NCBI GenBank assembly: GCA_949285905.1
Contig: CASDZV010000025.1
Coordinates: 1 to 64,000, forward strand
Origin: an uncultured Spirochaetales bacterium
GTDB lineage: Bacteria > Spirochaetota > Spirochaetia > Sphaerochaetales > Sphaerochaetaceae
Direction: 5' to 3'
DNA length: 64,000 nucleotides
The notes under the pieces are model-generated. The model made no database searches, was not told the DNA's origin, and saw only the letters and a program-made list of their open reading frames with translations. Position numbers and translations under genes: made by a program. Of this stretch, positions 58,335 through 64,000 are shown one piece after another (within the stretch, counting starts at the first letter, position 1; the number at the start of each line of letters is the position of its first letter).

Positions 58335-58637
58335 CTATACCCATTTGTAAACAGGCAGGTTCTTGGTCTCAGAGATAAACTGTTCTTCCTTGTTGCGTCT
58401 GGAGAAATCAGCCTGGACTCTGACAAAGAAGTTCGGGCTCATGCCGAAATATCTTGCGAGTCTCCAGCATACGTCGTCGCTCATCTTGTTCTTGCCCTGG
58501 AGGATCTTGCTGAGAGCGGTAGCGGATATGCCGAGGTCCTTGGCAAGCCTGTAAGCAGAGAGATTGAGAGGTTCAATCCATTCCTCGTTGAGGTAATCAC
58601 CGAATGTCCCGAGATCTATCTTGTAAGTATCGTTCAT
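58335..58637 (-). CDS. higA: HigA-type antitoxin
   Basis: 100 aa. Residues about 25-80 are an XRE helix-turn-helix with YRLAKDLGISATALSKILQG and LARYFGMSPNFFVRVQADF, the HigA/VapI pattern. It neutralises the HigB toxin and represses the pair. It follows higB by 12 nt, the normal higBA order (toxin first). Antisense to the phage early operon. Confidence 0.88.
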   Translation of the reverse strand: MNDTYKIDLGTFGDYLNEEWIEPLNLSAYRLAKDLGISATALSKILQGKNKMSDDVCWRLARYFGMSPNFFVRVQADFSRRNKEEQFISETKNLPVYKWV

Positions 58638-58649
58638 ATGTTCACCTCC

Positions 58650-58931
58650 TCAATGGTAGTCAACGATTTCGACATCGTAGGCATTGCCGTCCTTCCAGGA
58701 GAAACAGATACGGAACTGATCGTTGATTCTTATCGAGAATTGTCCATTCCTGTTTCCCTTCAGCTGTTCAAGCCTGTTGCTTGGCGGGATTCTCAGGTCA
58801 GAAAGCGTTTCTGCCTCGTTGATGGCAATGAGCTTGTGCAAAGCTCTTCTTGCTATGTCAGAAGGCAACCGTCGAGGGGCATACCCCTGATAAACCAACT
58901 CGCTTTCCTTGTCTTTGAACGTTCGTATCAT
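58650..58931 (-). CDS. higB: HigB-type mRNA interferase toxin
   Basis: 93 aa RelE-superfamily toxin: MIRTFKDKESELVYQGYAPR, then RALHKLIAINEAETLSDLRI, PPSNRLEQLKGNRNGQFSIR and INDQFRICFSWKDGNAYDVE. This is the full-length HigB pattern. It cuts ribosome-bound mRNA when HigA is lost. Together with higA it may stabilise the prophage or act in abortive infection. It has its own promoter with an internal palindrome. Confidence 0.9.
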   Translation of the reverse strand: MIRTFKDKESELVYQGYAPRRLPSDIARRALHKLIAINEAETLSDLRIPPSNRLEQLKGNRNGQFSIRINDQFRICFSWKDGNAYDVEIVDYH

Positions 58932-59185: not shown

Positions 59186-60063
59186 TGGCTGAGAGAAGAA
59201 TGGTATCTATAAGCCTTATAGATGATGACCGCTTCCTGGATATGAGCCAGGGAGCGCAGTTCCTGTACTTCCATCTAACTATGAGGGCAGACGATGACGG
59301 CTTCATAACACCGAAGAAGGTCATGAGGCTGGTCGGTGCATCACAGAAGGATCTCGACGCCCTTATCAATGCAGGCTTTCTCATTTCCTTTGAAAGCGGA
59401 GTAGTCGTTATAACCCACTGGAGAGTGAACAATACAATCCGCAAGGATAGATACACTCCCACAAGCTTCCAGAAGGAATTCAATGAACTGACTGTAATTA
59501 ACGGTATGTACGCGAGATGCGCACGGCAACCAATGGTTACAGAAGATCATGAGGAAGGCAGAGAGATTGACAACCAACTGACTACCAATGGAGAACCGTC
59601 TGACAACCAGTTGGCAACCAAGTGTCAACCGGACGACAACCAAGTGGTAGACACAATGGCAACCGAACGGCAACCATCTGACAACCAACGGTTGCCACAG
59701 GTTAGGTTAGGTAAGGATAGGGAAAGAGAAAAGACTCGCTCTCTTATAGAGAGCTCGTCTAAAAGAGAAACCCCCTCGCCTGGCAACCAGATGGCAACCA
59801 GCATATCACCGCCAGTTCTCGATGAAGTGAAAGCATATTTCAGGGGAAATCTCCTTTCAGGAGATCCCGAGAGATTCTTCTATACATACCAGTCCAGGGG
59901 ATGGATTGATGCTGCAGGTATCCCTGTGAGGGATTGGCATGCAAAGGCCATGAACTGGTCCATCGATGAGAAGAGCAGGAAAGACAGCGGAGGCTCAAGA
60001 GACAAGCCCCGCGACTACGATGGCTCGTATGACAGCCATTCGATGAAGGAGGTCTCGCTATGA
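59185..60063 (+). CDS. Phage replisome organizer (DnaD-like N-terminal domain)
   Basis: 292 aa. The N-terminal SISLIDDDRFLDMSQGAQFL with FHLTMRADDDGFITPKKVMR is the phage replisome-organizer winged-helix domain. A long polar linker (about 115-195) follows, made of Asn, Gln, Thr and Pro, then a C-terminal DnaD-like end (AYFRGNLLSGDPERFFYTYQ, AAGIPVRDWHAKAMNWSIDE). It binds the phage origin and recruits helicase with the loader encoded next. The linker is encoded by 11-bp DNA iterons, so the origin probably lies inside this gene, as in lambda O. Confidence 0.82.
   Translation: MAERRMVSISLIDDDRFLDMSQGAQFLYFHLTMRADDDGFITPKKVMRLVGASQKDLDALINAGFLISFESGVVVITHWRVNNTIRKDRYTPTSFQKEFNELTVINGMYARCARQPMVTEDHEEGREIDNQLTTNGEPSDNQLATKCQPDDNQVVDTMATERQPSDNQRLPQVRLGKDREREKTRSLIESSSKRETPSPGNQMATSISPPVLDEVKAYFRGNLLSGDPERFFYTYQSRGWIDAAGIPVRDWHAKAMNWSIDEKSRKDSGGSRDKPRDYDGSYDSHSMKEVSL
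59527..59799 (+). repeat. 11-bp iterons inside the replisome organizer gene, putative phage replication origin
   Basis: CAACC boxes begin at 59527, 59571, 59604, 59615, 59626, 59637, 59660, 59671, 59682, 59784 and 59795, and one-mismatch boxes at 59582 and 59593. Within 59571-59647 the step is exactly 11 bp; 59527 is 44 bp before 59571. Consensus CAACCRNNYGR. Since 11 is not a multiple of 3, the repeat is read in all frames and cannot come from a protein repeat. A purine-rich tract and a palindrome (GCTCTC/GAGAGC, 59738-59754) follow. Confidence 0.75.
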
Positions 60064-60803
60064 TCAGGCAGTTCTACAGCACGCTATCGCCATTCTGGCA
60101 GACGATGGTGGCAAGGGAATGCAAGGCAAAGGGAATCTCCCTGGATGATTTCTCCATCTCGGATTTCGAGAAGCTCAAGACAGGCGCTGAGCGCGTTGCC
60201 TCCCTTCTCGGACGGAATGTCGAGGAGCTGAAGGTGGAGGAGGTCGACAGGAAGAATGACGAGCTCCGGATCAAGCTGAAGCTGTTTGAGGAGTCTGTTC
60301 CTTTCAGGTACAAGGACGCAGACCTCCAGAAGGACTTCCACGCTCCGTTCATTGAAAGCCTGAAGAACGGTCAGAGCGGGGTTGTCGTCGGCGGAAACGG
60401 AATCGGAAAGACCAGGCTTGCATGGGCTTTGGCAAGGTACTGGAAGCAGCAGAACCCATCATGCTCGGTCCAGATCATCAAGGGTGCAGAGCTCTTGTCC
60501 GAGGTCAAGGCAATAGATGGTGACTGGTATCGCTATATCCGCGAGGTGTATGGGAAATCCGAGCACCTCTTCATCGATGAAATCGACAAGATCAAGGGCA
60601 CAGAGGCTGACTGGATGCTTCTCACGTACCTCATCGACTACCGCTATGAGTGGTGCTGGCAGACAATCGTTCTCGGGAACTGCGGAAAGGATGAGGCAAT
60701 GAGGCTTCTGGGGCAGTCATCATACTCCAGGCTGTCAGGGGATGGCGCAGAGGCTTACCACCTGGTAGGAACCGATAAGAGAAAGGAGGGAATGAAAACA
60801 TGA
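60060..60803 (+). CDS. DnaC-like helicase loader ATPase
   Basis: 247 aa AAA+ ATPase. A helical N-terminal part, then Walker A VVGGNGIGKTRLAWALA (about residue 112), Walker B HLFIDEIDKIKG, and sensor-like TIVLGNCGKDEAMRLLG. It loads the replicative helicase at the phage origin together with the replisome organizer. It overlaps both neighbours by four bases (ATGA). Confidence 0.86.
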   Translation: MIRQFYSTLSPFWQTMVARECKAKGISLDDFSISDFEKLKTGAERVASLLGRNVEELKVEEVDRKNDELRIKLKLFEESVPFRYKDADLQKDFHAPFIESLKNGQSGVVVGGNGIGKTRLAWALARYWKQQNPSCSVQIIKGAELLSEVKAIDGDWYRYIREVYGKSEHLFIDEIDKIKGTEADWMLLTYLIDYRYEWCWQTIVLGNCGKDEAMRLLGQSSYSRLSGDGAEAYHLVGTDKRKEGMKT

Positions 60804-61176: not shown

Positions 61177-61482
61177 ATGGCAGTGATAAAAGCACCTAGG
61201 CAGATGATAGCTCCGCAGGTTCCTGTAGACCTTTACAGGGATGGAAGGCTCGTAAGGAGCTATGACTCGGTTTCAGAATGCGCAAAGGATCTTCACATCT
61301 CATACCAGACAGTGAAGTACCTGATAGCTTCCGGAAAGGAACTCTATACGACTCCGGAATCCGTGACTCTGGATATCCCGTCTTACTGCCCGTACTCATA
61401 TGTGCTTTCCTTTGATGAGGAGAGCAAGAGGTATCTTCCTGAAGTGCAAGATGACAGAACAGGGGAAATGCTTGGCGTGTGA
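61177..61482 (+). CDS. Small phage protein with a NUMOD1-like DNA-binding segment
   Basis: 101 aa. VDLYRDGRLVRSYDSVSECA then KDLHISYQTVKYLIASGKEL matches the NUMOD1 helix-turn-helix pattern, usually found attached to homing endonucleases; here it stands alone with a C-terminal beta part (YSYVLSFDEESKRYLPEV). Probably a DNA-binding regulator of the late genes or a remnant of a homing enzyme. No nuclease motif is seen. AGGGATAAGAG lies upstream. Confidence 0.65.
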   Translation: MAVIKAPRQMIAPQVPVDLYRDGRLVRSYDSVSECAKDLHISYQTVKYLIASGKELYTTPESVTLDIPSYCPYSYVLSFDEESKRYLPEVQDDRTGEMLGV

Positions 61483-62513: not shown

Positions 62514-63470
62514 ATGGCTGTACCTCCTGGACTGCTGTTTTCATTCAGAGATCTGCAAAGAGGGCTCTCTCGCTCATCTTATGCCATCTCATGCGGCTTC
62601 TATCCGTATGCATGGCAGACTGCAGTCCTGGAATCACATGCGAAGTTCAAGATCATCGATGGTGCACGCCAGTCCGGGAAATCGACAATCGTCTCTGTTA
62701 TCCCTGCTCACAAGGCTAAGTACAAATCGAAGTCTCTTTCCCTGGTCATTGCCCCGACCAGAGCACAGGCAAACGAGGACATGCTGAAGATAAAGGAGCT
62801 CATGTCAAAGGATCCTTCATATCCGACGCTTGTGAAGAACAGCGCATTCGAAGTGACACTCTCGAACAAGTCAAGAATCGTTGTCGTCACAGCAACGGAC
62901 AAGGCCGCACGTGGATACTCGGCACCTGACATAATCCTCGTAGATGAGGCAAGCCGTGTACCTGATACGGTCTACTCATCCGCAGTCCTTCCTATGCAGA
63001 CAGCTTCACCAGAGGATTTCGAACTGATACTCATCTCGACTCCGTTCGGCAAGCAGGGGTTCTTCTATGACTGCTGGGCAAACAGTGGGGTTTACGAGAA
63101 GTTCGAGATAAGAGCGCCGTGGAGCGTTGATGAGAGATTCCCGACAAAGCTTTTTGAAGCGATACCTGAGGAGCGGTTTGCGAAGCTACGTGCAGAGCAG
63201 GGGATTTACGGAGGATACAGCCCTCAGCACAAGAGCTATGAGCAGCAGGTTGAGATACTAAGGCAGCAGGGCACTCTCATCTACCAGCAGGAGTTCCTGG
63301 GGGAGTTTGTGGACCGCAATGATGCTGTCTTCAGACGCGCGGATCTCGACAGGGCATTCTTCCCTGATGTCTATCCTGCAGAGCTTGATCTTGCAGGAGA
63401 TTCTTCAACCATCATGCCAGCACCTGAGGCCATCAGGCTGAAGAAGGTAGTTGGCGGAAAGTATTTCTGA
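62514..63470 (+). CDS. Terminase large subunit, ATPase protein (split form)
   Basis: 318 aa. Adenine motif FYPYAWQTAVL, Walker A DGARQSGKSTIV (about residue 50), Walker B IILVDEASRVPD (about 140), and coupling motif LILISTPFGKQGFFYD. It ends with EFVDRNDAVFRRADLDRAFF and then a short tail, with no nuclease domain. Large terminases normally run 400-600 aa with a fused nuclease. AAGGA lies 6 nt before the ATG. The nuclease is encoded by the next gene. It powers DNA translocation into the capsid. Confidence 0.88.
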   Translation: MAVPPGLLFSFRDLQRGLSRSSYAISCGFYPYAWQTAVLESHAKFKIIDGARQSGKSTIVSVIPAHKAKYKSKSLSLVIAPTRAQANEDMLKIKELMSKDPSYPTLVKNSAFEVTLSNKSRIVVVTATDKAARGYSAPDIILVDEASRVPDTVYSSAVLPMQTASPEDFELILISTPFGKQGFFYDCWANSGVYEKFEIRAPWSVDERFPTKLFEAIPEERFAKLRAEQGIYGGYSPQHKSYEQQVEILRQQGTLIYQQEFLGEFVDRNDAVFRRADLDRAFFPDVYPAELDLAGDSSTIMPAPEAIRLKKVVGGKYF

Positions 63471-63481
63471 GGAGAACGCAT

Positions 63482-64000
63482 ATGGCAGACCAGATATACA
63501 CACCATTCACAAGACATATCCTTTCGCAGGATATCGGTAAGAAGCAGGACGCTACGACATCGGGCGCTTTTACAATCGCTCCGGAGTATTTCGACAGCGG
63601 AGATGGAAGGAGACGCGTGACGACATTCCTGGATGTGGGCTTCCTGGACAAGCGGAGACTCTCGTATATGGAGCTCGGGGAATACACAAAGGAGATGATG
63701 GAGTCTCTCTCATTCGGCGATAACTGCTCTCTTCTGATTGATGGCACAGGAATAGGCGAGGCTGTGTATGACATCTACACATCCCTCGGCCTTGAGCCGG
63801 TGAAGATCATATTCACATCAGGGGAGACTGCATCTGTTGAGCAGAACCGCGCGCAGTTCTCTCAGAAATTCGGAGCAGTATCCGGATACAAGGTGCCGAA
63901 GGTCGATATGATCTCAGCCGCGCAGGTCATCTTCCAGCAGGGCAGAATCCGCTTTGCCGAGAATATCGACTTCCGCGATGAGTGCTTTCAGCAGCTTCAG
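63482..64000 (+). CDS. Terminase large subunit, nuclease protein (split form, cut by window edge)
   Basis: 173 codons are visible from ATG 63482 to the window end with no stop. LSQDIGKKQDATTSGAFTIA gives the first metal-binding aspartates of the RNase H-like terminase nuclease, and SLLIDGTGIGEAVYD the second (usual pattern vDxtGvG). GAGGAG lies 6-7 nt upstream, so it has its own start; it is not a frameshift remnant, as the ATPase gene ends in a stop 11 nt before. It would cut the concatemer during packaging, working with the separate ATPase. Confidence 0.85.
   Translation, partial: MADQIYTPFTRHILSQDIGKKQDATTSGAFTIAPEYFDSGDGRRRVTTFLDVGFLDKRRLSYMELGEYTKEMMESLSFGDNCSLLIDGTGIGEAVYDIYTSLGLEPVKIIFTSGETASVEQNRAQFSQKFGAVSGYKVPKVDMISAAQVIFQQGRIRFAENIDFRDECFQQLQ

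Follow-up and report, generated by a model that had tools for sequence, protein, structure and literature searches.

Replication origins situated inside the gene of their own initiator have been described for phages as well as for plasmids. According to a 2022 paper that cites the primary work, ORF13 of phage TP901-1 and Rep2009, the orf16 product of the Lactococcus phage Tuc2009, bind to repeats that are located in the respective gene and act as origin, and for the Tuc2009 repeats origin function and resistance in trans have been reported (PMC8965321). Equally, the database record of Tuc2009 Rep carries the remark 'contains origin of replication'. Among plasmids, the RepA_N initiator of pSK41, which combines an N-terminal DNA-binding domain with DnaD-like folds, has its origin within the rep gene in linker-coding DNA; four Rep boxes are reported for it, and the portions of the article consulted mention no 5-bp tract (PMC5703833). 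At oriC, on the other hand, initiator boxes are found beside a repeated strand-specific opening element, as realized in the DnaA-trios and the DnaD Recognition Element (PMC10201434).

The stretch of DNA analysed here, called the window, consists of 64,000 nucleotides of an uncultured Spirochaetales bacterium and contains a gene for a DnaD-like replisome organizer. Positions 59568-59754 within this gene are considered, with a probability of about 0.88, to be a prophage replication origin inside its own organizer gene, of the kind found in Tuc2009 and r1t. Tuc2009 Rep is homologous to the window organizer (34% over 174 aa, E 3e-28 in blastp), and its gene possesses 8-bp boxes of the sequences TGGCAACC and TGACAACC with the same step and in the same place, followed by a tract, AGGATAGGATAGGAGAGGTTAGG, of the AGGTT type that is also seen in the window. 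The window differs from Tuc2009 in its larger number of boxes, 12 of them in the main array, of which the last is inverted, in the additional boxes behind the tract, in its C-terminal sequence and in its spirochaete host. The gene for ORF11 of the Lactococcus phage r1t, whose N-domain is homologous to that of the window organizer (36% over 91 aa, E 1e-15), equally shows 11-bp boxes and then a 5-bp-period tract, although the boxes are TGGAACCG/CGGAACCA (GGAACC type) and residue 81 is Lys. A helicase loader is encoded nearby in both cases, as reported for ORF12 in r1t. Thus, a homologous organizer, direct repeats in its own gene and a nearby loader are all found in the window, and the homology to Tuc2009 together with the shared motif makes it a further case of a known origin kind, this time in a spirochaete prophage. 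The likely phage origin proposed in the first-pass annotation is hereby supported, and the repeat unit CAACCRNNYGR, which had not been recognised there, is the same as the unit of Tuc2009.

Other described systems resemble the window in part. For TP901-1 Rep an intragenic origin is reported too (PMC8965321), yet sequence comparison shows no homology of this protein to the window organizer, so that it was dismissed as a homolog. With pSK41, the window shares the position of the repeats in linker-coding DNA and the combination of a putative N-terminal DNA-binding domain with a DnaD-like protein, while a RepA_N domain is not among the Pfam matches of the organizer, as 0 families are found at E 0.1. 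In the same search at the level of Pfam families, no match to a lambda O-type initiator was obtained (0 families). The arrangement of boxes beside a repeated element is comparable to that at oriC, with a period of 5 bp in the window tract as opposed to 3 in the DnaA-trios; TnnT, regular spacing of which would mark such an element, is absent from the + strand of the window tract and occurs four times on the − strand, a count given without chance estimate.

The organizer gene and its neighbourhood

The features of the locus are collected in Table 1. Against the PHROG collection, the organizer protein gives phrog_8489 (E 2e-52) and phrog_5708 (E 1e-48), both described as 'DnaD-like helicase loader', and the product of the following gene matches phrog_50 (E 2e-18) as well as PF00004, PF01695 and PF00308 above their cut-offs, which bears out the initial assignment of a DnaD-like organizer gene followed by a loader gene. 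No match was obtained when the viral contig collection was queried with the window organizer protein itself, nor in a profile search of PDB sequences. In the AlphaFold2 model, a confident N-domain (approximately residues 1-108, with pLDDT mostly >90 in residues 11-70) and a helical C-domain (pLDDT 88-97 in residues 201-260) are connected by a low-confidence linker (mostly <50). The array and the tract map to this linker, at approximately residues 123-176, where pLDDT is low and disorder is predicted. The best Foldseek matches of the model are 5kbj, a Rep-DNA complex, and 4pta; with a Foldseek E of 0.0095 and 73 residues aligned by VIA-align (Z 5.8), the likeness to 5kbj is weak and one among many to winged helices.

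Genes for RusA, an exonuclease and DUF1351 upstream of the organizer fit a replication and recombination region of a prophage, and a terminase gene is located downstream. Just upstream of the organizer gene, a HigBA-type toxin-antitoxin pair is present on the − strand (58335-58931), consisting of an HTH_3 protein (58335-58637) and a HigB-like toxin (58650-58931; PF05015, E 2e-20). On the + strand, a small open reading frame (61177-61479) matches NUMOD1 (PF07453, E 6e-5), which is found in proteins associated with homing endonucleases. The open reading frame of the terminase large subunit (region 62514-64000, + strand) stops at 63470, after which an apparent C-terminal half runs on in a different frame, so that the gene seems split.

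Table 1. Features of the organizer locus (positions in the window).
Feature	Position	Strand	Remark
DnaD-like replisome organizer gene	59200..60063	+	287 aa from ATG 59200; PHROG matches
N-terminal winged-helix-like domain, putative box binder	59200..59514	+	AlphaFold2 model; weak likeness to 5kbj
Codons 79-84 (T-I-R-K-D-R)	59434..59451	+	residues 79, 81 and 84 go with box sequence in relatives
Isolated upstream box CGGCAACC (59524-59531) and degenerate TGGTTACA (59534-59541)	59524..59541	+	
Main iteron array, 12 boxes of 8 bp, 11-bp step	59568..59697	+	one 12-bp step at 59634/59646; last box inverted
5-bp-period purine-rich tract	59698..59728	+	C AGGTT AGGTT AGGTA AGGAT AGGGA AAGAG
Hairpin GCTCTCT-TAT-AGAGAGC, after tract	59738..59754	+	
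Two more boxes TGGCAACC, 11 bp apart, behind tract	59781..59799	+	starts 59781, 59792
Helical C-terminal domain (residues 201-264), putative loader recruiter	59800..59991	+	AlphaFold2 model
DnaC-like AAA+ helicase loader gene	60060..60803	+	overlaps organizer stop

The box array

The box array in the organizer gene is real. Its natural unit is an 8-bp box, KGNNNNCM, with a 3-bp spacer, and the boxes of the window are mostly TGGCAACC or TGACAACC. Within the main array, boxes start at 59568, 59579 (TGACTACC), 59590 (GGAGAACC), 59601, 59612, 59623 and 59634 and, after the single 12-bp step, at 59646 (GGTAGACA), 59657, 59668, 59679 and 59690, with three members (59579, 59590, 59646) being degenerate and the last one (59690-59697, GGTTGCCA) an inverted copy of TGGCAACC. 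The motif CAACC, for which the first-pass annotation had listed an exact 11-bp step, was found at every listed place (59527, 59571, 59604, 59615, 59626, 59637, 59660, 59671, 59682, 59784, 59795); of the unit CAACCRNNYGR proposed there, the CAACC step holds, while the 'YGR' end is the start of the next box.

The repeat is confined to this locus. CAACC-N6-CAACC pairs occur six times on both strands of the 64-kb window, all inside the array gene, and GRCAACCN4GRCAACC is found four times in the whole assembly, all at the array, with 0 occurrences of the reversed control. Compared to 5000 synonymous-codon shuffles of the gene as null model, 11-bp self-matches amount to 16 versus 3.4 ± 2.6 (16 being reached in 1/5000), the CAACC count to 11 versus a mean of 3.9 and a maximum of 10, and CAACC pairs 11 bp apart to 6 versus a mean of 0.6 and a maximum of 5. 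As the 11-bp period goes beyond the synonymous shuffles, it is not explained by the protein and is kept at the DNA level, as had been presumed from the step length.

Conservation of the periods in the organizer family

The family survey was based on 162 non-redundant organizer relatives from genome and viral collections, or 163 with r1t added; a tblastn search against phages gave 125 records, mainly Streptococcus and Lactococcus phages. Pooled 5-mer self-matches in 159 genes, compared with synonymous shuffles, are enriched at a lag of 11 bp (1266 versus 243, observed/expected 5.2) and equally at a lag of 5 bp (609 versus 115, observed/expected 5.3). These two, with their multiples, are the only strong frame-breaking periods in the 159 genes (z 47 and 35), other lags not divisible by three being mostly near 1 save a few multiples or combinations of 11 and 5. 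On the level of single genes, 60 pass p 0.01 at lag 11 as opposed to 0 to 3 at lags 7, 8, 13, 14, 16, 17 and 19, and 26 and 20 genes pass at lags 10 and 20, which are multiples of 5.

The closest relatives demonstrate how the geometry persists while the sequence changes. In each of the five same-genus relatives (L003-L007) the 11-bp period is retained (0 or 1 of 1000 shuffles), also in those with changed boxes: CAACC boxes are kept in L003, L004-L006 possess GGAAAC/GTATCC boxes and Gln81, and L007 GGAACC boxes and Lys81. A relative with the protein kept and the 11-bp period lost, which the first-pass annotation had named as evidence against its reading, is thus not seen among these five, all from the same host genus. 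The window and L004 share the 36-nt tract without any difference, as opposed to 61-69% identity of the N-domain, the boxes and the C-part. Variations of the gene layout are also observed. In four spirochaete relatives (L012, L013, L261, L263) the N-domain is a short open reading frame with the 11-bp repeats 3' of the stop codon, and in two organizers (L086, L238) long linkers between the N-domain and the boxes resemble, by eye, an HNH-type zinc/nuclease domain.

The 5-bp-period tract and the hairpin

Directly behind the array lies an (AGGTT)n tract that had been overlooked in the earlier annotation. Matches to the tract are found in 141/163 relatives including r1t, partly by construction as the tract model was fitted on the same 163 genes, versus 15 for the reversed sequence and 0 for the reverse complement; 22/163 relatives are without a match. 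Its sense strand is rich in purines in every relative. Upon alignment on the tract, the conserved box C appears at −2, −13, −24 and −35 and G at −7, −18 and −29, and these fixed offsets indicate that the array is phase-locked to the tract, a phase common to the 141/163 relatives. Codon choice inside the tract is strongly skewed compared to the remaining parts of these genes (Leu TTA 0.98 versus 0.24, Ser AGT 0.91 versus 0.20, Ile ATA 0.90 versus 0.30), which identifies the tract as a DNA-level feature as well. The reading frames of the tract (0, 2 and 1 in 107, 30 and 4 genes) were discarded as DNA-level evidence and the codon test preferred, because the frame counts partly reflect a 5-bp slip of the anchor. 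Among 80 viral contigs retrieved with the tract as sole query, 77 carry a family gene nearby, and the remaining three are truncated there by the end of the contig.

The hairpin of the window is present in L003 and L004 with altered, but still paired bases. Perfect stems of at least 7 bp between +25 and +130 of the tract start occur in 34/141 genes, about a quarter, and such stems are overrepresented in the range of 25 to 100 bp past the tract start and few elsewhere in the genes except for the boxes themselves, the control being other positions of the same genes only. The hairpin is treated as an optional part of the origin.

Organizer residues that go with the box sequence

While step and tract are constant, boxes vary among relatives (TGGCAACC, GGTATACC, TGGATACA, TGGAACCA, TGGAAACA). 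The box class is associated most strongly with alignment columns 81 and 79, just past the predicted wing; the canonical recognition helix (approximately residues 49-58) was rejected as the specificity element, as none of its columns is among the 16 most associated. Across the relatives, a G:C outer pair is typical of Arg81, T..A of Gln81 and an ATA core of Tyr79. In the training set, G-/-C outer ends are present by majority in 88/92 genes with Arg81 and 0/34 with Gln81; Tyr79 accompanies the ATA core in 54 genes versus 4, and other residues at 79 accompany CAA in 60 versus 5. A held-out set comprised 91 additional genes, from which those similar in DNA to the training set had been filtered out. 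In it, the G:C outer pair is present in 0/45 genes with Gln81 and 27/41 with Arg81, and Tyr79 occurs with ATA in 72 genes versus CAA in 4, there being 11 ties and just 4 genes without Tyr79. The first rule, by which Arg81 specifies a GG- or -CC outer end, is incomplete, as 14/41 held-out Arg81 genes failed. Of these exceptions, 13/14 have Thr or Met at residue 84 and boxes that were grouped as another kind, mostly CGTCGACG or CGAGTCCG; this is a post hoc grouping, with the residue-84 rule formed after the exceptions had been seen.

Matched Arg81/Gln81 pairs, at least 70% identical outside residues 77-86 (a threshold set once) and chosen greedily by identity, switch boxes as expected in 53 of 59 cases, with 1 opposite and 5 ties, although the pairs are partly related by descent and not fully independent; in same-residue control pairs boxes differ in 5/79. 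The best tree contains 32 changes at residue 81. Independent Arg/Gln pairs on well-supported branches are reduced to 4 to 6, of which 4 to 5 are concordant, so that the tree test alone is not significant. The window organizer, with T79, R81 and R84 and TGGCAACC boxes, is as the rule expects. Altogether, residues 79, 81 and 84 are associated with the sequence of the boxes; this correlation suggests that they take part in reading the boxes and indirectly supports organizer binding to the repeats.

Alternative explanations

The repeats might be kept for the protein, as an 11-residue linker repeat and xRLGK tract repeats. Indeed, repeats can be read in the linker (DNQLTTNGEPS, DNQLATKCQPD), and in most relatives the tract codes for repeats of the VRLGK type, but neither 11 nor 5 bp is divisible by three and both periods exceed synonymous shuffles by the z values given above, the tract codons are skewed and the linker is predicted to be disordered, which leaves this explanation hardly credible. 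Initiators often autoregulate through binding their own iterons. The boxes might also be conceived as an operator array by which the organizer or another phage regulator represses its own gene or late transcription, with replication starting elsewhere, and the association of residues 79, 81 and 84 with the boxes equally shows recognition, not replication. However, the array is located deep in the coding region and not at a promoter, a constant 5-bp tract at fixed phase is unexpected for a simple operator and the in-gene repeats of Tuc2009 are reported to be the origin (PMC8965321), so that an operator role in place of an origin is very improbable. A GC-skew switch, suggested earlier as a check, is absent at the array, where the skew follows gene direction; for a temperate phage this is weak evidence.

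Within the origin interpretation, certainty is lowest for the function of the tract. Instead of being read out by organizer or loader, the tract might act via transcription, with the G-clustered non-template strand favouring an RNA-DNA hybrid that opens the origin or provides a primer. The location of the origin in a transcribed gene and the invariably purine-rich sense strand, without any reverse-complement match in 163 genes, are consistent with such a hybrid. On the other hand, the phase between tract and boxes, fixed to the base, and the near confinement of the tract to the organizer N-domain family fit a protein readout better; readout by a protein is favoured for these reasons and the hybrid considered an unlikely alternative.

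Proposed mechanism and significance

Organizer binding and origin function are known from the homolog Tuc2009, and by analogy binding, opening and loading can be inferred for the window phage. The organizer N-domain would bind the 8-bp boxes, one per helical turn of 11 bp, with residues 79, 81 and 84 helping to choose the box sequence, such that about twelve organizer copies might line up on one face of the DNA. This row of protomers would end at a fixed distance from the 5-bp-period tract, at which the duplex may be opened and one strand held. The C-terminal domain, on its disordered linker, would then bring the DnaC-like loader, the product of the following gene, and this loader in turn would load the host helicase. 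Tentatively, and with the odds rather against it, the origin might be viewed as having two separately evolving readers, with the boxes recognized via organizer residues 79-84 and the almost constant, phase-locked tract of 5-nt period constituting a new strand-specific opening or loading element distinct from the DnaA-trios and the DnaD Recognition Element.

The kind of origin is already known; of interest could be the comparison of hundreds of related phage origins with constant geometry, in which box switches accompany changes at one to three residues. If this is true, the sequence would suffice to predict initiator specificity across a widespread phage family, single substitutions in laboratory phages could test it, and origins of the organizer family could be annotated by rule. 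Equally, the constant 5-bp tract would represent a defined candidate for the DNA-opening step. Furthermore, the intragenic-origin architecture would be extended to prophages of spirochaetes, here of a gut spirochaete.
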